From: Desulfovibrio desulfuricans DSM 642
GTDB lineage: Bacteria > Desulfobacterota > Desulfovibrionia > Desulfovibrionales > Desulfovibrionaceae
Assembly (NCBI RefSeq): GCF_000420465.1
Contig: NZ_ATUZ01000014.1
Coordinates: 310,001 to 374,000 of the forward strand
Reading direction: 5' to 3'
Length of the DNA: 64,000 nucleotides
The position numbers were made by a program, and so were the translations under genes. Under the pieces are notes generated by a model that saw only the letters and a program-made list of their open reading frames with translations, made no database searches and was not told the DNA's origin. The stretch's first letter is position 1. Every line of letters begins with the position of its first letter. Below are positions 1,664 through 17,220 of this stretch, piece by piece.

Positions 1664-2824
1664 CTACCTGCCCGCGCGGCATGCGCCAAGGTTCAGGCCC
1701 ATGGAAAGGATGGCGGCTATGTTGCGGGCTGTTCTGCGCAGATTTTCATTGCCCTCGGTAAGCGCCTCGTCAATGGTGCAGGGGCGGTAGAGCACGCTTG
1801 AAACCGCGTCAATGCCGTGGGCAAATACGGCGTCCACATCGGCCCGCAGTGAACCGCCAATGGCTATAACCGGCTTGTTGTAACGCTTTGCCACGCGGGC
1901 AACGCCCACAGGAGTTTTGCCAAAGGCCGTCTGCCCGTCAATGCGGCCCTCGCCGGTAACAACGATATCAGCATCGCGCACATGCGCGTCCAGGCCCACG
2001 GCTTCGGTCACAATCTCGCTGCCGGGGCGCAGCCGCCCTTTCAAAAAGGCGAACATGGCCGCGCCCATGCCGCCAGCCGCGCCAGCGCCGGGCATGTCCG
2101 CCATGTCCACGCCGAGGTCGCGGCGCGCGATGGCCGCAAAGTTCTGCAAATAGCCGTCGAGCTGCTGCACCATTTCAGGCGTGGCCCCTTTCTGCGGGCC
2201 AAAAATGGCCGATGCGCCGCGCGGGCCGCAGAGTGGGTTGTCCACATCGCAGGCAACATCGATGACGCAGTCGGCAAGGCGGGCGTCAAAGGCGGACATG
2301 TCTATGCGCGCAAGCCTGCCAAGGCCCATGCCGGTGGGCTCGATTTCCTGCCCCTGACCATCCAGCAGCCGCACCCCCAGAGCCTGAAGCATGCCAGCGC
2401 CGCCTTCGTTGGTGGCGCTGCCGCCAATGCCCAGAATGAACTTGCGCGCGCCGGCATCCAGCGCAGAGCGGATAAGCTGGCCCGTGCCGTAGCTGGTGGT
2501 ATTGAGGGGATTGCGCAAGTGGGGCGGCACAAGGGCCAGGCCGCTGGCTGCGGCCATTTCGATCACTGCGGTTTTGCCATCGCCGGTCAGGCCGTAAAAA
2601 GCATCCACCGGGTCGCCCAGCGGGCCGCGTACCGTGGTATCCACCCGGCGGCCTGCCGTGGCTTCCACCATGGCTTCCACTGTGCCTTCGCCGCCGTCTG
2701 CCACAGGAACCTTGACGTAGACCGCATCGGGAAAAACCTCGCGAAAGCCGGATTCGATGGAAAGGGCCACTTGCAGGGCAGACAGGCATTCCTTGTACGA
2801 GTCGGGCGCGATGACGATCTTCAT
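1664..2824 (-). CDS. glxK: Glycerate 2-kinase (GlxK/GarK family)
   Basis: A 386-residue protein matching the class I glycerate kinases, which use ATP to phosphorylate D-glycerate, usually at the 2-hydroxyl, feeding lower glycolysis in the cytoplasm. Visible family signatures are APDSYKECLSA (residues 6-16), VADGGEGT (41-48) and GIGGSATNEGG (132-142), and the length is typical. A GGAGGT site lies just before the ATG at 2824. It is the last gene of the DeoR-led acid-sugar operon, but is separated from the GntP gene by 285 bases holding a strong hairpin, so it may be made at a different level. Its presence suggests that glycerate is either another substrate imported by the permease or a side product of the pathway. 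Confidence 0.93.
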   Translation of the reverse strand: MKIVIAPDSYKECLSALQVALSIESGFREVFPDAVYVKVPVADGGEGTVEAMVEATAGRRVDTTVRGPLGDPVDAFYGLTGDGKTAVIEMAAASGLALVPPHLRNPLNTTSYGTGQLIRSALDAGARKFILGIGGSATNEGGAGMLQALGVRLLDGQGQEIEPTGMGLGRLARIDMSAFDARLADCVIDVACDVDNPLCGPRGASAIFGPQKGATPEMVQQLDGYLQNFAAIARRDLGVDMADMPGAGAAGGMGAAMFAFLKGRLRPGSEIVTEAVGLDAHVRDADIVVTGEGRIDGQTAFGKTPVGVARVAKRYNKPVIAIGGSLRADVDAVFAHGIDAVSSVLYRPCTIDEALTEGNENLRRTARNIAAILSMGLNLGACRAGR

Positions 2825-2934
2825 ACCACCTCCAGAACGGCAGGAATCTGCGGCGCGTCACGCGCCGCGATGCCCCAGCATAGGGCACAACTGGCCGAAT
2901 GAACAGGTGCTGCGGGGACTGGCCTTATCTGCAC

Positions 2935-2984
2935 CAACAACAAATGCCGACAGCCCGTGTGGGGGCCATCGGCATTTGTTGTTG
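2935..2984. repeat. 16-bp perfect inverted repeat between gntP and glxK
   Basis: CAACAACAAATGCCGA (2935-2950) and TCGGCATTTGTTGTTG (2969-2984) are exact reverse complements around an 18-nt loop. Read on minus, the GC-rich core followed by ATTTGTTGTTG could act as a terminator or processing signal after gntP. The 10-mer ATTTGTTGTT is also present in the DeoR promoter at 7817-7826, so an operator role is a second possibility. Confidence 0.75.
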
Positions 2985-3109
2985 CGGCACCATGTCGGAG
3001 AGGGTCGGCTGTGCCGTCTCAAGTTTTAAGGCGCTCACTCCCGTGCGTAATAGCTTCGTGGCGGGGCCTGTTCGCACAGTTGCCAGAGCGAACTCAGAGT
3101 GAAATTGCT

Positions 3110-4492
3110 CTAGATGAAAAAGCCCGCCACGATGAGGATGGTGCAGCCCACAGCCCAGCAGATGGTGGTCGTGACCGACCAGATGCGGATCTGCTCGCGC
3201 ACGTCCGAAACACCGAGCATGCGGGTGACAACCCAGTAGTAGCTGTCATTGAAGTAGGAGAAGATAAATGCGCCAGTGCAACAGGCCAGCGCCCCAAGGG
3301 TGGGGTTGAGGCCAAGGGTTGCGGCCATGGGCGCAACGATGGAGGCCGATGTGACCATGGCCACAGTGCCGGAACCCTGCATAAGGCGCACAATGGTGGC
3401 GATGGCAAGCGGCAGGATGACCGCAGGCAGATGCATGGTGGCAATGAGGTTTGCCACATGCGTACCCGCGCCGCTGTCGCGCAGCACCATGCCCAGCGCG
3501 CCGCCGCCGCCGGTAACGAGCAGAATGATGCCCGCCTGCTTGACGGAGTCGTCCATCGTGTTGACGACGTCCTTGCGGCTCATGCCGTCGGTGAGGAAGA
3601 AGGCCGCGAAAACAAGGCCGATGCCCACTGCCACAACGGGGGAACCAAGGCCGTCAATGAGGTCAAACATCAAGCCCACGCGCTCAGCCTTGGGAACAAG
3701 GGCGGTGGTGAAGGTGCCAAGCAGGATGAGCACTACGGGAATAAGAATGGGTGCAAAGCTCTTCCAGGCCGAGGGCAGCTTGCTGTCATCTTCATCCATC
3801 CACTGGCCGCCAGCGCCGATGGCATAGGGCTGATCCACAAAGCCATCATCGCTGTCCTGTGCGGGCAGACGAAAAACCTTGTTCCCGATGTAACGGGCAT
3901 AGATGATGGAGGCGATGGTCAGGGGGATGGCCAGCAGCAGGCCGAACAGGATCATGTCGCCAAGGGGCACGTTGAAGTATTCCGCCGAGGCCACAGGGCC
4001 GGGAGTGGGCGGAATAAGGTGGTGGGTGATGACCAGCCCTGCCGCCAGCGCCACGCCAAGAGTGATGAGGCTTTTGCCAGTGGCCCGCGAAATGGCTTTT
4101 GCCAGCGGCGAAAGAATGACAAAACCCGAATCGCAGAAAATGGGAATGGACACGATAAAGCCCGTTGTGGCAAGGGCCAGTTCTTCGCGGCCTTTGCCAA
4201 AAAGTTTCAGAAAAACCTTGGCCATGCGCTTGGCAGCGCCGGATTTTTCAAAGATGGCGCCCATCATGATGCCAAAACCGATGATGATGCCGATGCTGCC
4301 CAGGGTGCCGCCAAAGCCCTTGGTGACAGAAGCGATAACCTTGCTGAAGGGCATGCCGCCCACAAGGCCCGTGACGATGGCGGCAATGATCAGCGCCGGG
4401 AAGGCGTGAATACGACTGTAAAGAATAAGACCAACCAGAACGCAGATGCCAACCACAAGGCCGGCAATCATCTGCCAACTGCCCACATCCAT
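3110..4492 (-). CDS. GntP-family gluconate/sugar-acid:H+ symporter
   Basis: A 460-residue polytopic inner-membrane protein of the GntP family, which imports gluconate and related sugar acids with protons. Family features include the long run of about 12 hydrophobic segments, the IPIFCDSGFVILSPLAKA block and the H-H-L-I-P-P-T-P-G-P block. I chose the ATG at 4492, which is preceded by GGGAG at a good distance; a longer frame starts at 4543 without a site. It lies between the PdxA2-like dehydrogenase and glycerate kinase, so the cargo is most likely a four-carbon acid sugar (threonate or erythronate) or glycerate rather than gluconate. This specificity is an inference from neighbours. Confidence 0.92.
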   Translation of the reverse strand: MDVGSWQMIAGLVVGICVLVGLILYSRIHAFPALIIAAIVTGLVGGMPFSKVIASVTKGFGGTLGSIGIIIGFGIMMGAIFEKSGAAKRMAKVFLKLFGKGREELALATTGFIVSIPIFCDSGFVILSPLAKAISRATGKSLITLGVALAAGLVITHHLIPPTPGPVASAEYFNVPLGDMILFGLLLAIPLTIASIIYARYIGNKVFRLPAQDSDDGFVDQPYAIGAGGQWMDEDDSKLPSAWKSFAPILIPVVLILLGTFTTALVPKAERVGLMFDLIDGLGSPVVAVGIGLVFAAFFLTDGMSRKDVVNTMDDSVKQAGIILLVTGGGGALGMVLRDSGAGTHVANLIATMHLPAVILPLAIATIVRLMQGSGTVAMVTSASIVAPMAATLGLNPTLGALACCTGAFIFSYFNDSYYWVVTRMLGVSDVREQIRIWSVTTTICWAVGCTILIVAGFFI

Positions 4493-4600
4493 AGCTAACT
4501 CCCTTTTGAAAAGTGCGCGCGCGGCAAACCCTCGTTGCCGCACCGGCTTTATCCGGCGGCCACTGCCATACCCCTTGCAGCAGCGGCCGAGTGCCCGGAT

Positions 4601-5596
4601 TTAATGTCTGACGAAGTTGGGCGCGTATTCCGCAGCAAGGCGGATGGCTTCCACCATGCTCACAGCGCTGACCTTGCCTGTTCCGGCAATGTCAAAGGCG
4701 GTACCGTGATCCACCGATGTACGCAGAATGGGCATGCCCAGCGTGAGCGAGATGGTGCGCTCAAAGTCCACCATCTTGGTCGCTATGTGGCCCTGATCGT
4801 GATAGAGCGAGAGCACGGCGTCCCACGCGCCCTTGAGGGCAAAGTGGAAGACCGAGTCCGCCGGGTTGGGGCCGTGAACGTTGAAGCCCTGACGGCGGGC
4901 TTCTTCAATGGCCGGAACCACTTCAGCGTCTTCCTCATTGCCAAAAAGCCCGTGCTCGCCGCAGTGCGGGTTGAGGCCAGCCACCACCATGCTCGGATTT
5001 TTCAGCCCCAGCAGCTTGAGGGCGCTGGTGCAGCGGCCAATGTAGTCGAGCACGCGGTCTTTTTTCACAGCGCGGCAGGCATCAATCAGAGAGAGGTGAC
5101 GGGTCAGGAAGAACACGCGCAGGTTGTGCACCTGAAACATGGTCAGCGGGTCCTTGGTGCCGGTGAGGTCGCCAAAAATTTCGGTGTGCCCGATGTAGGG
5201 CACGTGGGCTGCCTTGAGGGATTCCTTGTTGATGGGCGTAGTTGCCACGGCGGCGGCCTTGCCAGCCAGGGTCAGCTCAATGGAGGCCTTGATGTATTCA
5301 AAGGCAGCCTGTCCGCACTGGGCCTGCACCTTGCCGTAGGCAAAGGAGGCCATATCCACGTTGTCCATGTTGATGATATTGGCAGCGCCCTCGCGCCAGC
5401 CGTTGAGATCCGCATCCACCTCGTTGAAGTCGAGGTCTGCCTTCATGATGGCGGCGGCGCGGCGTATGATTTCGGTATTGCCCACCACAAGCACATTGGC
5501 CATGTCGGTGACGGCGGGGTCAGCCAGCGAAGCGGCCAGAATTTCCGGCCCAACGCCTGCAGGGTCGCCCATTGGAGCGCAAATCAGGGGTTTCAT
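4601..5596 (-). CDS. pdxA2: PdxA2-type 4-phospho-threonate/erythronate dehydrogenase
   Basis: A 331-residue NAD- and metal-dependent dehydrogenase of the PdxA family. The G-D-P-A-G-V-G-P-E motif is at 10-18 and the three metal-binding histidines of PdxA correspond to H167, H211 and H266. Classical PdxA makes the vitamin B6 precursor, but when encoded beside a DUF1537 kinase the enzyme is PdxA2, which oxidises 4-phospho-D-threonate (or erythronate) and lets it decarboxylate to dihydroxyacetone phosphate. The gene starts 49 bases after the kinase stop and precedes the GntP permease. A role in B6 synthesis cannot be excluded if no other pdxA exists in the genome. Confidence 0.88.
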   Translation of the reverse strand: MKPLICAPMGDPAGVGPEILAASLADPAVTDMANVLVVGNTEIIRRAAAIMKADLDFNEVDADLNGWREGAANIINMDNVDMASFAYGKVQAQCGQAAFEYIKASIELTLAGKAAAVATTPINKESLKAAHVPYIGHTEIFGDLTGTKDPLTMFQVHNLRVFFLTRHLSLIDACRAVKKDRVLDYIGRCTSALKLLGLKNPSMVVAGLNPHCGEHGLFGNEEDAEVVPAIEEARRQGFNVHGPNPADSVFHFALKGAWDAVLSLYHDQGHIATKMVDFERTISLTLGMPILRTSVDHGTAFDIAGTGKVSAVSMVEAIRLAAEYAPNFVRH

Positions 5597-5645
5597 TTCT
5601 CTCGTCCTTGTTGATTATGAACTGGTTTTGGTGCGGCGCAGCGCG

Positions 5646-6977
5646 TCAGGCGGGCCGCTTGCGGCTTGAAATTTTGGTGAACAGGTATTCCGTGCACTCC
5701 ACCAGGCTGTCTTTGTCCCCCACAAATCCACCCTTGGTGATCATGGGCAGATCGGGGTGTTCGCCGCCGATGATGTGACCGTACACGGCAAGGGGCAGCA
5801 CCTGATCGCGCACGGAAAATCCGCCCGCCTTCAGGGTGCGTACCACGGCTACCGTGACTTCCCCGCCTGAGGTGTAGAGGCCGCCGATGCCCAGTTGTTT
5901 TTGTCGCAGGGCCTCGCGCGTCACGGCGGCAAGGGCCGTGTTGATGTGCTGCGAAATGTCGCAGGGCAAAATGCCAAGCTTGCGCGACATTTCTTCCATG
6001 GAAAAAACGTCTTCCCTGCTGTCAGCCGTGCAGATGCCAAGAACCGTGGCCTCCTTGTGCGGGGTGCATACGGCCTTGAGCACCCGGTCGCATTCCTTTT
6101 GCCATTCTGTTTCTCCAGCCAGAATTTTACGAACATCCATCGTTATGAGATGGCAGGGATGGGCCAGACGCAGGGTTTCAATCTGGGTGCGGGTCAGTTC
6201 GCAGGTGCTGCCCACGGCAAGAAAAATACGGTTTTCAAACTGCGCGCGCGGGGCCTTGACGCGTACGGCGGCAAGCTCTGCCGTGAACGGGCCGGGATCA
6301 AGGGCGATCAGGGGATAGGGCGCACTGGCAAGGGCCTGCGCGATGGTGGTGATGTCTTCATCCGCCACGGCATCGCAGACCACGGCGCGACAGCCACGGG
6401 CGCGTGCGTCCTCAATGGTTTCGCGTACGGCGGCAGGCCCGGCGAGGATCCTGTCAAGCGGGACAAATCCGCAGGCAATGGCGCTTTGCTCTGCCACGAT
6501 TTTAAGCACAGAGGTATTGTTGACAGGGGTTGCCGCGTCCTTGGCAATGGGCGAGCGTTCCAGCGGTATGCCGTGAACGATCTGGTATCCGCCCACGCAT
6601 ATGCGGCCCGATGACGGGTAGGACGGCACCAGCACGGCCAGCGACTGCTGGTGCCCGTAAGTGTCGTCCATAGCCTTGATGGAGGCTTCCATTTCTGCCC
6701 CCACGTTGCCGCGCAATGTGGAATCCACCCGCTTTGAGACAAGGGCTGGATGTTCCCTGCAAAACATGCTCACGGCGTCGTACACAACCTGCCAGGCTTT
6801 TTGCTGTGGCAGCAGGCGACTTTCCGCATTAAGGGAAACCGCAGTGTAGGCAGAAAAATCTGCGGGGTTCCAGTGATCCGGCCCAAGGCAGGTGGCGCTG
6901 GAAAAGCCCTTGGCTGTGAGCAGGGCCCCGTTGGCATTGGCGCCCGTGAAATCATCGGCAATAACGGCAATATCCAT
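5646..6977 (-). CDS. Four-carbon acid sugar kinase (DUF1537 / OtnK-DtnK family)
   Basis: A 443-residue cytoplasmic kinase of the DUF1537 family, which phosphorylates C4 sugar acids such as D-threonate, D-erythronate or 3-oxo-tetronate with ATP. The N-terminal substrate-binding domain opens with MDIAVIADDFTGANANG, the family hallmark, and the C-terminal nucleotide-binding domain ends with G-L-Y-T-S-G-G-E-V and M-I-T-K-G-G-F-V-G-D. I place the start at the ATG at 6977 (AAGG six bases upstream); an upstream ATG at 7013 would overlap the regulator gene. It lies 22 bases after the DeoR gene. With PdxA2 next door the most likely substrate is D-threonate (DtnK) or D-erythronate; sequence alone does not separate these. 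Confidence 0.9.
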   Translation of the reverse strand: MDIAVIADDFTGANANGALLTAKGFSSATCLGPDHWNPADFSAYTAVSLNAESRLLPQQKAWQVVYDAVSMFCREHPALVSKRVDSTLRGNVGAEMEASIKAMDDTYGHQQSLAVLVPSYPSSGRICVGGYQIVHGIPLERSPIAKDAATPVNNTSVLKIVAEQSAIACGFVPLDRILAGPAAVRETIEDARARGCRAVVCDAVADEDITTIAQALASAPYPLIALDPGPFTAELAAVRVKAPRAQFENRIFLAVGSTCELTRTQIETLRLAHPCHLITMDVRKILAGETEWQKECDRVLKAVCTPHKEATVLGICTADSREDVFSMEEMSRKLGILPCDISQHINTALAAVTREALRQKQLGIGGLYTSGGEVTVAVVRTLKAGGFSVRDQVLPLAVYGHIIGGEHPDLPMITKGGFVGDKDSLVECTEYLFTKISSRKRPA

Positions 6978-6999
6978 AACAAACCTTGTCAGAAAAGGG

Positions 7000-7773
7000 T
7001 TATGCGTCGGCAATAATCAAATGGGCGGGCGCAGCTTCAAGGGCGGCGCGGGCTTCGGCGGTCAGGCCGCTGTCGGTGATGATGTGGTCAAAGCGTTCCA
7101 CACCGGCCACCAGCCAGGGGCTGAACTTGGCGTACTTGGACGCATCTGCCAGCAGAAAGGTTTTGTCGGCGCTGGTCATGAGCTGACGCTTGTAATGCAT
7201 CTTGGCGGAAGTGCTGGTGGTGACGCCGTGGTGCGCGTCCCACACGTTGGTGCCCACAAAGGCCATGGTAAGGCGCAGGCCGCGCAGGTAGGCCACGGCA
7301 TCGCTGTCGTTGCAGGCGCGGCTGACGGGATCGATAAGCCCGCCCGAAAGAAAGACGGAAATATGGTCGCAGCCAGAAAGCAGCAGGGCTATTTCCAGGT
7401 CAGGCGTGACAACGCCGAGGCTTGTGAGGGGCAGGGTGGGCAGCAGGCGGGCCAGCTCAAGGCTGGTGGTGCCCGCATCAAGGGCAATGAAGTCTTCGTT
7501 CTTGATAAACTGACAGGCGGCGCGTGCTATGACCTGTTTGGCCTCAAGCATGGAAACGGCCTTGCGGGCGCGGGGAATGTCGTTGGCTTCAAAACTCAGG
7601 GGCACAGCCCCGCCCCAGGTGAGCTCAAGCTGGTTGCGTTCTTCCAGCACCTTGAGGTCGCGGCGCACAGTCATGGTGGAAATGCCCAGCGCTTCGGCAA
7701 GTTCGCGTGTATTGACCGCGCCCCGGTTTTTGATGAGGCGGGCCATTTCTCTGCGGCGTTCTGCTGGCAACAT
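7000..7773 (-). CDS. DeoR-family transcriptional repressor of the acid-sugar operon
   Basis: A 257-residue DeoR-type regulator. Residues 1-56 form the helix-turn-helix with the signature V-N-T-R-E-L-A-E-A-L-G-I-S-x-x-T-V-R-R-D-L; the remainder is the sugar-phosphate sensing domain (A-L-D-A-G-T-T near 97, and a final D-x-I-I-T-D block). It is the first gene of the minus-strand operon, so it most likely represses itself and the catabolic genes until a phosphorylated intermediate binds. Candidate promoter and T/G-rich operator repeats lie directly upstream. Confidence 0.9.
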   Translation of the reverse strand: MLPAERRREMARLIKNRGAVNTRELAEALGISTMTVRRDLKVLEERNQLELTWGGAVPLSFEANDIPRARKAVSMLEAKQVIARAACQFIKNEDFIALDAGTTSLELARLLPTLPLTSLGVVTPDLEIALLLSGCDHISVFLSGGLIDPVSRACNDSDAVAYLRGLRLTMAFVGTNVWDAHHGVTTSTSAKMHYKRQLMTSADKTFLLADASKYAKFSPWLVAGVERFDHIITDSGLTAEARAALEAAPAHLIIADA

Positions 7774-7805
7774 GGCGGCTCCGGAGTGTGACGGGTCTGT
7801 GTTAA

Positions 7806-10737: not shown

Positions 10738-13554
10738 TTATTCGCTGGCTTCGTCAACCAGATAGACGATGGAATAGTAGGGGATGCCGCCGTGCAGCGA
10801 GAGGCCGATCTGGCAGGTGCGGCTGGATGAATAGCCCACCTCGCAGGTGCTTACCTGCATGCGCAGGCCCTTGAGCGCGGCCTCGTTGAGTTCGGGATGG
10901 GTAAAGCCCCTGTCGCCCGCCCAGCCGCAGCAGTTGATGCCGTCCGGCACCACCACGGTTTCGGCGCACTTGCGGGCCAGTTCTTCCAGCTTGCCCTCAA
11001 GGCCCATCTTGCGCATGGAGCAGGTGGCGTGCAGGGCCACGGTTTTGGGCAGCTTTTTGAGCTTGAGCGTATCCATGAGATTCTCAAGGATAAACTGCAC
11101 AGGCTCCATGAGCTTGATGCCGGGGTCGAGGGTCTGCTTCATGTGCAGCAGGCAGGGGCTGGTTTCGCACAGCACAGGGTATTCGCCATTGTTGCTGGCC
11201 TGCCTCAGGGCCTTTTCCAGCTCCTGCTCTTTCTTGTGGGCGGCGTCAGCGAGGCCCTTGCTGGCAAAGGCCATGCCGCAGCACAGCTTGTCCAGATTAT
11301 TGGGCAGAATGACGTCATACCCGCCCTTGAGCAGCACGCTGATGACGGCTTCCGGCTCTGTACGGCGGTCGCTGTGCTCCTCGCCGGGGCCCATGTTGCG
11401 GGCGATGCAACTGGGGAAGTAGACGACCTTCTTGGCGTTGCCCGAGTACGGGGTGGGCAGATAGACCGAGCCCCCGCCCTTGGGCATGTTTTTGTTCCAC
11501 AGTGGCACCTTGTTGAAGGTCAGGCAGCGCAGGAGGCGCGAGCCATCGCGCATGATGGTGGTGCCAAGGGCGCGGTGCAGGGCGTCCACGCTGTTGAGCG
11601 CAATGGACATGGCCTTGCAGGTTCCCGCAAAGTGGTCGGCAATGGTTCCGGCAATGCTCTTGCCCATGGAACCGGCGTCCTTTTTGCGCAGGCTCTTGAT
11701 GAAAACGCCCGTATCCACGCCTGCGGGGCAGCGCGGGCGGCACAGGCTGTCTGTGGCGCAGGTGGCCTTGCCCATGTATTCGTAGCCCTTTTGCAGCGTT
11801 TTCAGCTCGCTGCTTTCAGGGGCAACCTCGCGCAGGCGGCAGATTTCGCGGTATACGGTGATGCGCTGGCGCGGCGTGAGCGTAAGATCGCGCGAGGGAC
11901 AGACAGACTCGCAGAAGCCGCACTCCATGCATTTGTCCACCAGTTCGTCGGCGGGGTGCAGGGGCTTGAGATTTTTGAGATGCCCCTGCGAATCGCTGTT
12001 GAGCAGCACGCCGGGGTTGAGGATGTTCTTGGGGTCGAGCAGGCTCTTGATGCTCTTCATGATGGCGTAGGCCTGACTGCCCCACTCCAGCTCCACAAAG
12101 GGCGCGATGTTGCGGCCAGTGCCGTGTTCCGCCTTGAGCGAACCATCGTATTTTTCCGTAACCAGCTTGCAGAAGTCTTCCATGAACCCCTTGTAGCGGG
12201 CCACTTCTGCCGGAGCGCCAAAGTCCTGCCAGAAAACAAAGTGCAGGTTGCCGTCGCGCGCGTGACCGAAGAGCGGAGCCACCGTGTAGCCGTGGCGGGC
12301 AAAAAGTTCCTGCAGGTCTGTGGCGGCCTCGCCCAGCCTGTCGAGGGTGAAGGCCACGTCTTCAATGACAATGGAGGTGCCCACGGGCCGCATGCCGCCC
12401 ACCGAGGCCAGAATGCCCTTGCGGATGAGCCACAGCTTGGTGAATTCTTCGGGTTTGTCGGTAAAGGCGTAGGGCCGCACAAAGGTCACGTTGCTGAAAG
12501 CCGCATTGATGGTGGCAATGTTCTTTTCAAGCTGTTCGTGGGTGGCGGCACGGGTTTCCACAAGCAGGGAACAGACGTCGTCGTCCAGGGTTTCCAGCCC
12601 TTCGGGCAGGCCGGGGGTGCCTTCCACCGAGCGCAGGGATGCCCTGTCCATAAGTTCCGCAGCAGCAACGGGCAGAGTTGCCACGGCAGAAGCCAGATCA
12701 CAGGCGGCCTTGACCGTGGGCAGGAGCAGCAGGGCAGAGGCCTTGAAGGGGGCCTCCTCCACCGTGCGGTAAGTCACTTCGGCGATAAAGCCCAACGTGC
12801 CTTCGGAGCCGACCATGACATGCTGCAAAATTTCAAAGGGATCTTCGTAATCCACCAGAGCGTTGAGGCTGTAGCCTGTGGTGTTCTTGATCTTGAACTT
12901 GCGGCGGATGCGGTCGGCAAGCTCGGGATTGTCCATGATCTGTTTGCGCAGATCGGCAAGGCCGTTGAGAATATGGGCGTGGGTTCTGGCAAAGGCGGCG
13001 CGGCTTTTGGCGTCCGCCGTGTCCAGCAGGGTGCCGTCTGCCAGCACCATGCGTGAGGAAACAACGGTTTTATAGGAATTGTCAGACGTGCCGCAGCACA
13101 TGCCGCTGGCATTGTTGGCAAAAATGCCGCCGATAAAGCAGCTGTCGATGGAGGCCGGGTCAGGCCCGATTTTTTTGCCAAATTCCGCCAGAATCTTGTT
13201 GGCCCCGGAGCCGATGATGCCGGGTTGCAGGGTGATGCGCTCGGCGTTTTCGCCCACGCGCCAGTTACGCCAGCCCTTGCCTATGCGCACAAGGACGGAA
13301 TCGGACACCGCCTGACCGGACAGGCTGGTGCCTGCGGCGCGAAAGGTCACAGGCACGCGCATGCGGTCGGCCAGGCCCACCAGTTGCACCACTTCGGCCT
13401 CGTCCAGCACGTCAACCACGATCTTGGGGATCAGGCGGTACACGCTGGCGTCTGTGCCGTAGGCCAGCATGCGCAGGGGATCAGTATGGATGCGGTCTTT
13501 GGGAATAAAGTCCAGAAGGGCTTGTTTGAATTCTTTGTAGGGAGAAGCAAGCAT
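10738..13554 (-). CDS. FAD/Fe-S D-lactate dehydrogenase (Dld-II type)
   Basis: A 938-residue respiratory-type dehydrogenase. The N-terminal half is an FAD-binding PCMH oxidase (F-R-A-A-G-T-S-L-S-G-Q at 71-81, then an FAD-oxidase C domain with H-A-R-D-G-N-L-H). Next comes a ferredoxin-like domain with C-M-E-C-G-F-C-E-S-V-C-P and a second cysteine cluster (C-A-T-D-S-L-C-R-P-R-C-P), then two CCG domains typical of heterodisulfide-reductase-like subunits. This layout and length match the Dld-II D-lactate dehydrogenases, which pass electrons from D-lactate to the quinone pool at the inner membrane; lactate is a classic Desulfovibrio substrate. GGAGG before the ATG at 13554 sets the start. Glycolate or 2-hydroxyglutarate as substrate is a less likely alternative. 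Confidence 0.87.
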   Translation of the reverse strand: MLASPYKEFKQALLDFIPKDRIHTDPLRMLAYGTDASVYRLIPKIVVDVLDEAEVVQLVGLADRMRVPVTFRAAGTSLSGQAVSDSVLVRIGKGWRNWRVGENAERITLQPGIIGSGANKILAEFGKKIGPDPASIDSCFIGGIFANNASGMCCGTSDNSYKTVVSSRMVLADGTLLDTADAKSRAAFARTHAHILNGLADLRKQIMDNPELADRIRRKFKIKNTTGYSLNALVDYEDPFEILQHVMVGSEGTLGFIAEVTYRTVEEAPFKASALLLLPTVKAACDLASAVATLPVAAAELMDRASLRSVEGTPGLPEGLETLDDDVCSLLVETRAATHEQLEKNIATINAAFSNVTFVRPYAFTDKPEEFTKLWLIRKGILASVGGMRPVGTSIVIEDVAFTLDRLGEAATDLQELFARHGYTVAPLFGHARDGNLHFVFWQDFGAPAEVARYKGFMEDFCKLVTEKYDGSLKAEHGTGRNIAPFVELEWGSQAYAIMKSIKSLLDPKNILNPGVLLNSDSQGHLKNLKPLHPADELVDKCMECGFCESVCPSRDLTLTPRQRITVYREICRLREVAPESSELKTLQKGYEYMGKATCATDSLCRPRCPAGVDTGVFIKSLRKKDAGSMGKSIAGTIADHFAGTCKAMSIALNSVDALHRALGTTIMRDGSRLLRCLTFNKVPLWNKNMPKGGGSVYLPTPYSGNAKKVVYFPSCIARNMGPGEEHSDRRTEPEAVISVLLKGGYDVILPNNLDKLCCGMAFASKGLADAAHKKEQELEKALRQASNNGEYPVLCETSPCLLHMKQTLDPGIKLMEPVQFILENLMDTLKLKKLPKTVALHATCSMRKMGLEGKLEELARKCAETVVVPDGINCCGWAGDRGFTHPELNEAALKGLRMQVSTCEVGYSSSRTCQIGLSLHGGIPYYSIVYLVDEASE

Positions 13555-13921
13555 GGACAAACCTCCGTGGCGGTTCATGCCGTCATTGGTTGGGCGCCTG
13601 AAACAGCGCTGGGCGGGGAATTGCTGCCGTTGAAACCTGGATGGGAACCCTGGCATTTCTGCAAATGCCGGGTATGCTGATCTGGAGATGACAATGGATT
13701 AACAATAACAATTATCGGGGCGGATGGCTACTGTTTTGCTGGCAAAAAGCACTTCGGCCTGCGCAATCCTTGTGCCTCTGTCGCCCCTGCGTTACAAAAA
13801 AGAAAAACAGTTTGCTGATTTGATTTACAGCATTCCAGCGTCTGCCGTTGGGGTCGCTGGCGTTTTTGCGTATCGGTTTGAACATGCGGGATGTTACGGT
13901 CTGATTTTTTATGGAGGTTCC
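13555..13921. other. Intergenic region between divergent D-lactate dehydrogenase and C69 peptidase
   Basis: This 367-base stretch must hold the promoters of both flanking units. I see AT-rich DNA (for example 13696-13712) but no -35/-10 pair that I would defend, and no clear palindrome. GGAGG at 13914-13918 is the ribosome site for the gene starting at 13922. Confidence 0.35.
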
Positions 13922-15649
13922 ATGAAGCGGCTGATCGTCTTATGCTGTGTTTCCCTGGCCCTGCTGCTGCCGCAGGCTGTTCTTGCCTGCACTACCTTTA
14001 TTGTTACCAAGGGGGCCAGCGCTGATGGCTCCGTGATGGTAAGCCATTCTGACGACAACGATCTCAACGACCAATCCATTGTGTATGTTCCGGCCCGCGA
14101 CTGGCCGGAAGGCGCGCAGCGCCCCGTGTATGATTCCGCCGTGGCGGTGAAGGAAAATCCCGCCACCAACACTTTTCTTGTCCCCCGCCTTTCCGACCCC
14201 AAGCGCGCGCCGGGCTATAACCACCCGGATACGCCGCGCACGATTGCCATCGGTTTTATCCCTCAGGTGCGGCACACCTTTGCCTATATTGACGGCAACT
14301 ACGGCATCATGAACGAGCATGGCCTCATGTTTGGCGAATGCACCGACGGGGCGCACAATACCTGCACGGCAGAGCCGGGCAAGCGCATTTTCTATTCGTC
14401 CGAACTGGCGCGCGTGGCGCTGGAGCGCTGCAAAACAGCCCGCGAGGCCATTGAGCTGATGGGCACGCTCATTGAGCAGTATGGCTACTACGGAACGGGC
14501 GAAACCCTGCCCGTTGCCGACAAAAACGAAGCATGGGTTATGGAAATGGCCCCCTCCCCTGCGGGAACCGGCGGCCTGTGGGTGGCCCAGCGCGTGCCGG
14601 ACGGCCAGTTTTTTGTGGCGGCCAACGAATTTCGCATCCGCGACATCACGCCCGGCAACCCCGACCAGATGTACGGCAAAAGCCTGTTTGCCACGGTGGA
14701 CAAGTACAACATGCGCAGCCCCAAGGACGCCTCCAAGCCTCTGGACTGGCTGACCACTGTGAGCGATGGCGAATATAACCACCCGTATTATTCGCTGCGC
14801 CGCGTGTGGCGGGCGCTCTCTCTGGCGGCTCCTTCGCTGAAACTACCCGCCTGGGTGGAAAACGGCGCAACACGCGCCTATCCTTTTTCCGTCAAGCCGG
14901 ACAAGCTGCTGAGCCTGGACGACATCAAGCGCATGCATCGCGACCACTACGAGGGAACGGAATTCGACCTCACTAAAGGCACTGCGGCGGGGCCGTTTGG
15001 CAATCCCAACCGCATTATCGGCCCCAAGGATCCCAGCGGCGACGTGAGCCCGACCACCAAGCTTGAAGGCGCGTGGGAACGGCCCATGGGCATGTATTAT
15101 GTGGGCTACACGACCATTGCGCAGTATCGGCCCGATGTGCCGGAACCGCTCGCGCTGGTGTGCTGGGTTGCGCTCGCTCCGGCGGCGGAATCTGTCTTTG
15201 TGCCGCTGGCGGTCGGCCCCATGCCCGCAGGCTACGAACAGGGCGACACCCGCCGCTTTGCCAATGATTCCGCATGGTGGGCCTATTCTCTGGTGAGCGA
15301 TTACGCCAACATCCGTTACGACCTGATCTCTCAGGAGATTCAGACCAAAGCCGCCAGCATGGAAGCCGCCTTTGCCGCCCGCGTAGCAGGGCTGCAAAAG
15401 GAACTGGCCCCCAAGGCGGCATCATCCCCGGCGCAGGCGCAGGCTGCCTTTGCCAAGGCCCTGCGGGCACAGGCAGAGGGCGCGTTGCGCGACTGGCGAG
15501 AATTTTTCCCCCAACTGGTGGCGCGGCACTGTCAGGGTTTTCTCAACAGCCCGGACAAAATGGCCCAGAACATCGGCTATCCCGATGCATGGCTGCCCCG
15601 CACCAACTATTCCACCGGCCCGGTCTCGTATAAAAAGCCCCGGCAGTAG
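13922..15649 (+). CDS. Exported C69-family dipeptidase
   Basis: A 575-residue peptidase of family C69 (PepD-like Ntn hydrolases). After a typical signal peptide (residues 1-22, L-L-L-P-Q-A-V-L-A) the mature protein begins C-T-T-F-I-V, the family's N-terminal nucleophile cysteine, followed by A-S-A-D-G-S and the S-D-D-N block. Removal of the signal peptide thus exposes the catalytic residue. The V-L-A-C sequence could also be read as a lipobox, but the C69 motif fits better. It should cleave dipeptides in the periplasm. GGAGG five bases before the ATG at 13922 supports this start. The serine dehydratase gene follows after 38 bases and is probably in the same operon, ended by the terminator at 17182-17218. 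Confidence 0.9.
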   Translation: MKRLIVLCCVSLALLLPQAVLACTTFIVTKGASADGSVMVSHSDDNDLNDQSIVYVPARDWPEGAQRPVYDSAVAVKENPATNTFLVPRLSDPKRAPGYNHPDTPRTIAIGFIPQVRHTFAYIDGNYGIMNEHGLMFGECTDGAHNTCTAEPGKRIFYSSELARVALERCKTAREAIELMGTLIEQYGYYGTGETLPVADKNEAWVMEMAPSPAGTGGLWVAQRVPDGQFFVAANEFRIRDITPGNPDQMYGKSLFATVDKYNMRSPKDASKPLDWLTTVSDGEYNHPYYSLRRVWRALSLAAPSLKLPAWVENGATRAYPFSVKPDKLLSLDDIKRMHRDHYEGTEFDLTKGTAAGPFGNPNRIIGPKDPSGDVSPTTKLEGAWERPMGMYYVGYTTIAQYRPDVPEPLALVCWVALAPAAESVFVPLAVGPMPAGYEQGDTRRFANDSAWWAYSLVSDYANIRYDLISQEIQTKAASMEAAFAARVAGLQKELAPKAASSPAQAQAAFAKALRAQAEGALRDWREFFPQLVARHCQGFLNSPDKMAQNIGYPDAWLPRTNYSTGPVSYKKPRQ

Positions 15650-15687
15650 GCTTCGCAATCTGCCAGATAACTCAGGAGGATGCATGT

Positions 15688-17172
15688 ATGTACTGTAATC
15701 GTCGGCGTTTCCTGCAATCAATGGCTGTGACTGGCGCGGGCCTGTGCCTGTCCTCGCTCACATGGGCAGGCTTTGACCCCCTGTGGAAGCCTGGCTCCGT
15801 GTGCGCCAATCCCATTGACGTGACAGTGTTCGAGATGTTCAAGATCGGCCCTGGCCCTTCCAGTTCACATACCATTGCGCCCATGTCGGCGGGCAATGAT
15901 TTTATCCATCTGTGCGCCCAGTTGCCGCAGGAGCAGCTTGCCCAGGCGGATGCCGTCAAGGTGCACCTGTACGGCAGCCTCTCGGCCACGGGCAAGGGGC
16001 ACGGCACTGACCGCGCCGTGGCGGCGGGCCTGCTTGGGCAAAAGCCCGATGAATGCAAGGCCGAATTTCTGGACAACCTTTTTGTAAAGCCGGACGACAC
16101 TCGCACGGTAGTGCTTGGCCCGGCCCGGATTCCGCTCAAGGATTCGGACGTGATCTTTGAGCAGGGCACCATCGAGGCCCCGTTCAGCAACGTGCTGATC
16201 ATCGAGCTGCTGGGCAAGGGCAAACAGCTTGCCTCGCGCGAATACTATTCCGTGGGCGGCGGATTTTTGCAGTGGAAGGGCTGGAAGGCACCGGACAAAG
16301 GCAAGCCCGTGCATGCCTTTGATTCCATGAACGGCCTGCTTGAAATCGTGAAGACCACGGGCAAGAGCATCCCGCTCATTATGCTGGAAAACGAAATGTC
16401 CATCACCGGGCAGTCGGAACAGGACATCCGGCAGGGCGCGCAGCGCATCATCCACGTGATGGACAGTTGCGCCGCCACAGGCCTCGGGCTGGAAGGCAAG
16501 CTCAAAGGGCCATTTGGTCTGGAGCGCCGGGCCAAGCTCATGCTGGAGCAGGCCGCCAGCTCGCCGGAACCAGCGGACGCCTTTGCGGCGCGGCTGTCGG
16601 CCTACGGGCAGGCCGGGTCGGAAGAAAACGCCATGGGCCACCCCATTGTAACCGCGCCCACGGCGGGTTCCGCAGGTGTTATGCCTGCGGTGGTGCACAT
16701 GCTCATCAAGGAGCGCGGCAAAACAGAGGCCGACCTTGTGGACGGTCTGCTGGTGGCTTCTATGGTGGGTACGCTTGTCAAGCGGCACGCCAGTGTGGCG
16801 GGCGCGGATGTGGGCTGTCAGGGCGAGATCGGCTCGGCCTCAAGTATGGCGGCTGCCATGCTGTCGCAGGTCATGGGCGAAACGCCCGATGTGGTCGAAA
16901 ATGCGGCGGAATTTGCGCTGGAGCACCACCTGGGCATGACCTGCGACCCTGTGGGCGGCTATGTGCAGATTCCCTGTATTTCGCGCAACGCCATGAGTTC
17001 CGTGAAGTCGTGGAACGCCTGGATGATGGCCCGCACCGGGCAGGGCACCAAGCACCCTGTGGGGCTTGATCTCTGCATCCGCACCATGAACCAGACAGGC
17101 CGCGACATGAAGGATGACTACCGCGAAACCGCGCGTGGCGGGCTGGCTTTGTTCTATACACAGGGGTGTTAA
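15688..17172 (+). CDS. L-serine dehydratase (4Fe-4S) with a twin-arginine signal peptide
   Basis: A 494-residue one-chain L-serine ammonia-lyase: beta domain with FKIGPGPSSSHT (about 51-62), alpha domain with V-G-C-Q-G-E, M-T-C-D-P-V and Q-I-P-C-I (the three cluster cysteines) and the R-E-T-A-R-G-G-L-A block; the C-terminal residue is also cysteine. The enzyme normally converts serine to pyruvate and ammonia in the cytoplasm. Here about 39 extra residues precede the usual start and read M-Y-C-N-R-R-R-F-L-Q-S followed by a hydrophobic run, a good Tat signal. AGGAGG at 15674-15679, eight bases before the ATG at 15688, shows that the extension is translated. Tat export of a folded Fe-S enzyme is plausible. 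The partner gene upstream is an exported dipeptidase, which supports a periplasmic role. Confidence 0.9.
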   Translation: MYCNRRRFLQSMAVTGAGLCLSSLTWAGFDPLWKPGSVCANPIDVTVFEMFKIGPGPSSSHTIAPMSAGNDFIHLCAQLPQEQLAQADAVKVHLYGSLSATGKGHGTDRAVAAGLLGQKPDECKAEFLDNLFVKPDDTRTVVLGPARIPLKDSDVIFEQGTIEAPFSNVLIIELLGKGKQLASREYYSVGGGFLQWKGWKAPDKGKPVHAFDSMNGLLEIVKTTGKSIPLIMLENEMSITGQSEQDIRQGAQRIIHVMDSCAATGLGLEGKLKGPFGLERRAKLMLEQAASSPEPADAFAARLSAYGQAGSEENAMGHPIVTAPTAGSAGVMPAVVHMLIKERGKTEADLVDGLLVASMVGTLVKRHASVAGADVGCQGEIGSASSMAAAMLSQVMGETPDVVENAAEFALEHHLGMTCDPVGGYVQIPCISRNAMSSVKSWNAWMMARTGQGTKHPVGLDLCIRTMNQTGRDMKDDYRETARGGLALFYTQGC

Positions 17173-17181
17173 GGCAAAATG

Positions 17182-17220
17182 ATTAGCCCCGCAAAGCAAA
17201 CTACTTTGCGGGGCTAATTT
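17182..17220. terminator. Strong terminator after the serine dehydratase gene
   Basis: A perfect 15-bp stem (17182-17196 with 17204-17218, 7-nt loop) with a GCCCCGC core and T/A-rich ends. It sits between convergent genes and may serve both. Confidence 0.8.

Follow-up and report, generated by a model that had tools for sequence, protein, structure and literature searches.

A putative Tat-exported iron-sulfur L-serine dehydratase, often encoded beside an exported dipeptidase, in Desulfovibrio desulfuricans DSM 642 and related genomes

L-Serine dehydratases are regarded as cytoplasmic enzymes, and their iron-sulfur cluster is oxygen-labile. The Fe-S proteins exported by the Tat pathway include the hydrogenase small subunits and the Rieske proteins, which serve in electron transfer. 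The gene analysed here encodes a protein of the SdaA type (type 2 L-serine dehydratase) represented by the structure 4RQO, with which it shares both domains, the catalytic His, the three cluster Cys and the C-terminal Cys. Unlike that type, it bears a predicted Tat signal, to which its clade (clade 1 below) adds the motif G-[FY]-D-P-x-W. Like the hydrogenase small subunits and Rieske proteins, it is predicted to be exported folded with its cluster, but it is a non-redox hydro-lyase. Cytoplasmic dehydratases of Desulfovibrio relatives that contain GPGPSSSHT (for example L066/L087 of G154 and L016/L088 of G035) belong to the same subfamily and are 45–53% identical. They sometimes share an operon with a C69 dipeptidase of the family that neighbours the present enzyme; however, they are leaderless and, unlike the Tat loci, can have a TIGR00814-type transporter beside them. 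The L-cysteine desulfidase CyuA (PDB 9FSL and 9HE0) is a distant fold match with 10–12% identity, from which our protein differs in lacking GCTEP and in possessing the SDH beta domain PF03315. The gene upstream belongs with the C69 (PepD-type) dipeptidases as a PF03577 member, but it has an export leader and falls below the NF033678 cut-off. Our literature search, which covered few subscription papers, found no description of a Tat-exported or periplasmic L-serine dehydratase among the matches listed.

The window, i.e. the whole stretch of DNA that was analysed, comprises 64,000 nucleotides of D. desulfuricans DSM 642 (assembly GCF_000420465.1, contig NZ_ATUZ01000014.1, positions 310,001 to 374,000). 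The features of the locus, in window positions, are as follows.

13922..15649, + strand: C69-family dipeptidase of 575 aa (PF03577, 174.5 bits against a cut-off of 23), with an export leader by reading
15674..15679, + strand: ribosome-binding site AGGAGG, 8 bases 5′ of the Tat start codon
15688..17172, + strand: Tat-bearing single-chain [4Fe-4S] L-serine dehydratase, 494 aa, ATG start
15688..15768, + strand: predicted Tat signal peptide, residues 1–27 (from the leader alignment and the low model confidence of residues 1–30; cleavage A27|G28 presumed, by reading)
15769..15786, + strand: G-F-D-P-L-W, presumed mature N-terminus (G-[FY]-D-P-x-W in 10/10 readable clade-1 members, absent in clade 2)
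16000..16002, + strand: H105, equivalent of LpLSD His61, proposed catalytic base (16/16 Tat rows, 65/65 others)
16816..16818, + strand: C377, cluster ligand (16/16 Tat rows, 65/65 others)
16942..16944, + strand: C419, cluster ligand (16/16 Tat rows, 65/65 others)
16975..16977, + strand: C430, cluster ligand (16/16 Tat rows, 65/65 others)
17167..17169, + strand: C494, last residue, equivalent of LpLSD Cys458 (C-terminal Cys in 16/16 Tat rows, 46/65 others)
17182..17218, no strand assigned: 17-pair inverted repeat, a possible terminator between convergent genes (flagged on the − strand only; a pattern match)

By family, the product of 15688–17172 would be a single-chain [4Fe-4S] L-serine dehydratase, predicted to convert L-serine to pyruvate and ammonia. 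It matched the equivalog model of this enzyme, TIGR00720, with 429.2 bits (cut-off 345.1) over residues 45–488. Both domains (PF03315, beta, and PF03313, alpha) and all three cluster cysteines (C377, C419 and C430) were present, as the earlier note had claimed, and the 16 intact Tat rows all keep H105, these cysteines and the C-terminal Cys. The roles given to the His, the cluster Cys and the C-terminal Cys are transferred from the available part of one paper, in which His61 of LpLSD is the proposed catalytic base and its Cys458 binds the fourth iron (PMC12647591). The nearest solved structure was the Legionella pneumophila L-serine dehydratase 4RQO (phmmer, 324.4 bits); a Foldseek comparison of our model with it gave TM-scores of 0.79 and 0.88 at 41–42% identity. 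The AlphaFold model, built from 52 sequences, had a mean pLDDT of 91.1. Its residues 1–30 were poorly ordered (block means 63, 60 and 56), and block 31–40 reached 84, so that order starts just past the presumed cleavage at A27|G28. At position 64, beside the GPSSSHT loop, Ala was found in 16/16 Tat rows against 6/65 others; at position 434, Cys replaces Asn in 4/16 Tat rows and in 0/65 others.

The same genome contains TatC (PF00902, 248.5 bits) and, about 32 kb away, a second, cytoplasmic L-serine dehydratase, whose start is MLSVFDLFKIGIGPSSSHT. Since this separate cytoplasmic enzyme is present, the putative exported one is an addition and need not be the housekeeping copy. Two further PF03313 genes (L003 and L004) look CyuA-type because they carry a GCTEP motif. 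In the available part of PMC12647591 the catalytic residues of CyuA are Cys23 and Glu25, which are not conserved in SdaA/B; we equated them with GCTEP by reading. This motif (catalytic Cys and Glu) is present in L003 and L004 and absent from the window protein. The CyuA-type gene in L004 (8–2523) is preceded by what looks like a cation-coupled symporter gene for amino acids or dicarboxylates. Divergent from the dipeptidase gene, the − strand of the window (10738–13656) encodes an FAD-linked oxidase of 972 aa that has 4Fe-4S and CCG domains and that we take to be D-lactate-dehydrogenase-like; it also stands beside the dipeptidase–dehydratase pair in the close relatives G155, G134, G132, G143, G011 and G013.

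The earlier note had described 39 extra N-terminal residues forming a twin-arginine signal. An extension is indeed there, and N-R-R-R-F-L-Q occupies residues 4–10; by the family model its length is 44 residues and not 39, since the TIGR00720 match starts at residue 45. Residues 1–27 (MYCNRRRFLQSMAVTGAGLCLSSLTWA) make a Tat-like leader. On the first 47 residues, however, PF10518 gave 18.5 bits where 22.7 are required, and TIGR01409 gave 15.1 where 16.7 are. The window leader by itself is thus sub-threshold, and what decides its predicted Tat character is conservation among relatives.

A search of the order with the window protein matched 177 of 348 genomes (E ≤ 1e-100), and the N-termini were read for a subset of this list. 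Clade 1 comprises G000, G155, G134, G132, G143, G011, G231, G002, G232 and G156 (59–99% identical to the window protein), with G013 (81–84% identity) as the eleventh genome. All ten readable N-termini of this clade have RR-x-F-L, a hydrophobic run and then G-[FY]-D-P-x-W; the leaders otherwise diverge widely, as in MKTRRQFLYWGAGLGAGLLLSPASVLG of G002 and MLTRRSFLAMSALCGGGLAFAPAAALA of G156. The gene of G013 (L039/L076) lies at a contig end, with its frame broken within the signal, and that of G156 (L036/L074) has one in-frame stop near residue 190; in draft assemblies, assembly error and decay look alike in both cases. The G231 gene (L071, 3733–8506) sits downstream of genes that resemble the menaquinone genes of the futalosine pathway.

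Clade 2 consists of L021 (G054), L158 (G519), L160 (G500) and L176–L179, the last four from the class of G500, where 9 of 155 genomes matched (E ≤ 1e-90). Its members are 41–44% identical to the window protein, and each has an RR-x-F-[LFI] leader. A looser relative with 49% identity, L180 (G865), was noticed through its leader. RR-x-F-[LFI] is therefore found in 18 N-termini (10/10 readable in clade 1, 7/7 found in clade 2, and L180), although the Tat proteins are only 41–49% identical across groups. Of the 18, PF10518 matched 16 and TIGR01409 matched 14 (E ≤ 1). The features of a Tat substrate, by our own rule and reading, occur in the window protein and its 17 relatives: RR-x-F-L motif, uncharged hydrophobic run, and small residue before the cleavage position, which by reading is Ala or Gly in 18/18 leaders. 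All 18 passed our loose Tat rule, modelled on TATFIND, against 15 of 353 other ORFs of the same loci, a set in which spurious frames are counted, as are cytoplasmic dehydratases and a few Tat ones with a longer upstream frame. One of these 15 has RR-x-F-L.

None of 46 further dehydratase genes from the order whose 5′ ends were read, most of them picked because the open frame could hold a leader, showed a Tat-like start, and many relatives at about 45–53% identity start without the extension. The extension in homologues is thus kept through large divergence among close ones and absent in many of these more distant ones. Plasmid records with homologues numbered 189, all at less than 60% identity, and 19 of 395 genomes matched in a sample of one phylum (E ≤ 1e-70).

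The AGGAGG that the earlier note placed eight bases before the ATG is at 15674–15679, and start and ribosome-binding site are conserved in most close homologues. AGGAGG itself is kept in G155, G134, G132, G143 and G011, and most clade-2 members have comparable sites; by reading, the sites of G002, G231 and G742 are weaker. The pooled pN/pS was 0.175 for codons 2–44, 0.218 for signal codons 2–27 alone and 0.096 for codons 45–257, as pooled over the six non-independent pairs of G000, G132, G143 and G011. The extension is under purifying selection; comparison of 0.175 with 0.096 indicates that it is translated and retained, under weaker constraint than the core.

In the best tree, the 6 rows of clade 1 and the 7 rows of clade 2 formed two fully supported groups that were set apart, and L180 grouped with clade 2 (support 96/91). 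Holding all 14 Tat rows together was not rejected (p-AU 0.386). Independent gains of the signal were therefore dropped, and our claim is limited to two clades.

The upstream gene proved to encode a C69 dipeptidase, as had been proposed, with a leader that reads as Sec-type and would export it. The leader ends in LPQAVLA, with the presumed N-terminal nucleophile Cys next; the NF033678 score was 178.2 bits (cut-off 250). In the C69 proteins of L072 (2589–4439), L087 (1719–3617) and L144 (5275–7137) a short segment, a possible propeptide, lies between leader and presumed nucleophile Cys; in the window protein this Cys directly follows the leader. Only 38 bases separate the C69 gene from the dehydratase gene.

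Eight of the 11 clade-1 genomes have a C69 gene next to the Tat gene. It lies upstream of the Tat gene in G000, G155, G134, G132, G143, G011 and G013; in G002 it lies downstream and abuts. Because gene order is reversed in G002, the link has outlived rearrangement. Two of the seven clade-2 genomes (G846 and G858) have a leader-bearing C69 gene about 0.35 kb downstream of the Tat gene and in the same orientation, which makes 10 of 19 Tat loci overall. Genome-wide PF03577 searches found no C69 gene in G231, G232 or G156 (the last 81% complete), nor in five of the eight clade-2/G865 genomes, G865 included; G737 does have C69 genes, but away from the contig of the Tat dehydratase. The pairing put forward in the earlier note thus held in both gene orders and in a second clade, and failed in the 3 of 11 clade-1 genomes without C69. 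With these and the five clade-2/G865 genomes, the dipeptidase was dropped as an invariable partner; since several Tat genomes are without C69, it is a frequent partner and not a required one. Across the order, this C69 occurs in 60 of the 348 genomes (E ≤ 1e-30). Eight of them belong to clade 1, and there it always neighbours the Tat gene. The remaining 52 include 39 from the 177-genome dehydratase list; both positions are given for 32 of these, many of them draft genomes and compared by eye, and the two genes lie together in two (G035 and G154).

These two genomes show the counterpart arrangement: a leader-bearing C69, a TIGR00814-like serine/threonine transporter (484 bits in G154 and 500 bits in G035, below the cut-off of 525.8) and a leaderless dehydratase, in this order. 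A TIGR00814-type transporter lies beside 10 of the 27 cytoplasmic loci of the subfamily (L080–L106) and not beside the other 17, nor at three more cytoplasmic loci (L172–L174). At the Tat genes, none was found beside any of 19 loci (0/12 for clade 1 plus G054, 0/7 for the further ones), a count that covers the TIGR00814 family and in which some loci are on short contigs. Genome-wide (E ≤ 0.001), there was no match in 8 of the 11 clade-1 and 6 of the 7 clade-2 genomes. Matches were weak (40–45 bits) in G002 and G737 and strong in G013, G232 and G865 (413–425 bits in G013 and G865, away from the Tat gene), and no genome's match reaches 525.8. All five comparison genomes have such a transporter. 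G232 holds both enzymes, and there the transporter adjoins the cytoplasmic one.

We consider it likely that a Tat-exported, cluster-loaded dehydratase deaminates serine outside the cytoplasm, the serine often coming from an exported dipeptidase, and that the pyruvate is taken up. The dehydratase would fold and load its [4Fe-4S] cluster in the cytoplasm before Tat export, and its signal would be cleaved near A27|G28. Outside the cytoplasm it would convert L-serine, its presumed physiological substrate, to pyruvate and ammonia. The Sec-type exported C69 dipeptidase, where present, would free serine from dipeptides; that some Tat genes are without C69 suggests that free serine may be enough. Since no TIGR00814-type transporter gene was found beside the exported enzyme, the cell may import pyruvate and not serine; the strong transporter homologues at other sites in G013 and G865, and the 17 cytoplasmic loci that have no such neighbour either, count against this. 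The earlier interpretation as a putative exported Fe-S serine deaminase finds support in more than one clade, through conservation, selection and linkage.

The sub-threshold PF10518 and TIGR01409 scores, the GTG and ATG codons near the domain start, and the many relatives (about 45–53% identical) that begin there without a leader could instead mean that the N-terminus is only Tat-like and the enzyme cytoplasmic, through a non-functional leader or an internal start, e.g. GTG 15820 or ATG 15835. A labile Fe-S cluster outside the cytoplasm would also be at risk from oxygen, which counts against our main reading, as do the interrupted genes of G156 and G013. We find a cytoplasmic location highly doubtful, because RR-x-F-[LFI] is kept in the 18 N-termini while the remaining leader diverges, the AGGAGG is conserved at the Tat start with no comparable site seen by reading at the internal ones, and codons 2–44 are under purifying selection. 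An uncleaved signal might anchor the enzyme in the inner membrane with its active site in the periplasm, cleavage being predicted from sequence reading; the Ala or Gly at the presumed cleavage position of every leader, the order of the model right past this position and the modest hydrophobic run make such anchoring distinctly improbable.

Export might hold and the main substrate be other than free L-serine: L-cysteine (yielding H2S), threonine or another beta-substituted amino acid. Position 64, Ala in all Tat rows and in few others, would fit this, as would CyuA, a cysteine desulfidase of the same fold; the fold does not reveal specificity. Yet the window protein scores above the L-serine dehydratase equivalog cut-off (TIGR00720) and lacks the GCTEP that both CyuA-type genes of its genome carry, and cysteine competitively inhibits LpLSD with a Ki of 55 uM, according to the available part of PMC12647591; we regard a different main substrate as unlikely. 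Rather unlikely, in our view, is that the enzyme is exported and active and that its benefit is serine removal or ammonia release instead of pyruvate feeding. The separate cytoplasmic L-serine dehydratase and the Tat genes without dipeptidase speak for such a role, but the dipeptidase linkage at 10/19 Tat loci and the transporter-containing counterpart operon point to nutrition.

The genes that flank the Tat dehydratase of one clade-2 genome, G737 (L186, G737:C74:3500-14500, 2222–7795), each have an export leader by reading. One is an arginine deiminase gene by its match to PF02274 (155 bits), another codes for a DDAH-like lipoprotein matching PF19420 at 347 bits, and the third for an AAT-like Ntn hydrolase whose PF03417 score, 22.0 bits, falls short of the 23.2-bit cut-off. 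It is possible that they form a periplasmic deamination cluster in which several amino acids would be deaminated outside the cytoplasm.

If serine is deaminated outside the cytoplasm by a Tat-exported dehydratase, this enzyme would be a non-redox Fe-S hydro-lyase at work there, and ammonia and pyruvate from peptides would be released in the periplasm. Two natural arrangements would then exist, a transporter with the enzyme inside, or an exported enzyme without a TIGR00814-type transporter, with enzyme export standing in for amino-acid transport. Whether these genes make up a module of periplasmic amino-acid breakdown, in which an exported non-redox Fe-S deaminase obtains its substrate from an exported dipeptidase and enzyme export has taken the place of amino-acid uptake, the keto acid being imported, seems to us evenly poised. 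Our analysis suggests that some bacteria may degrade serine before its uptake.
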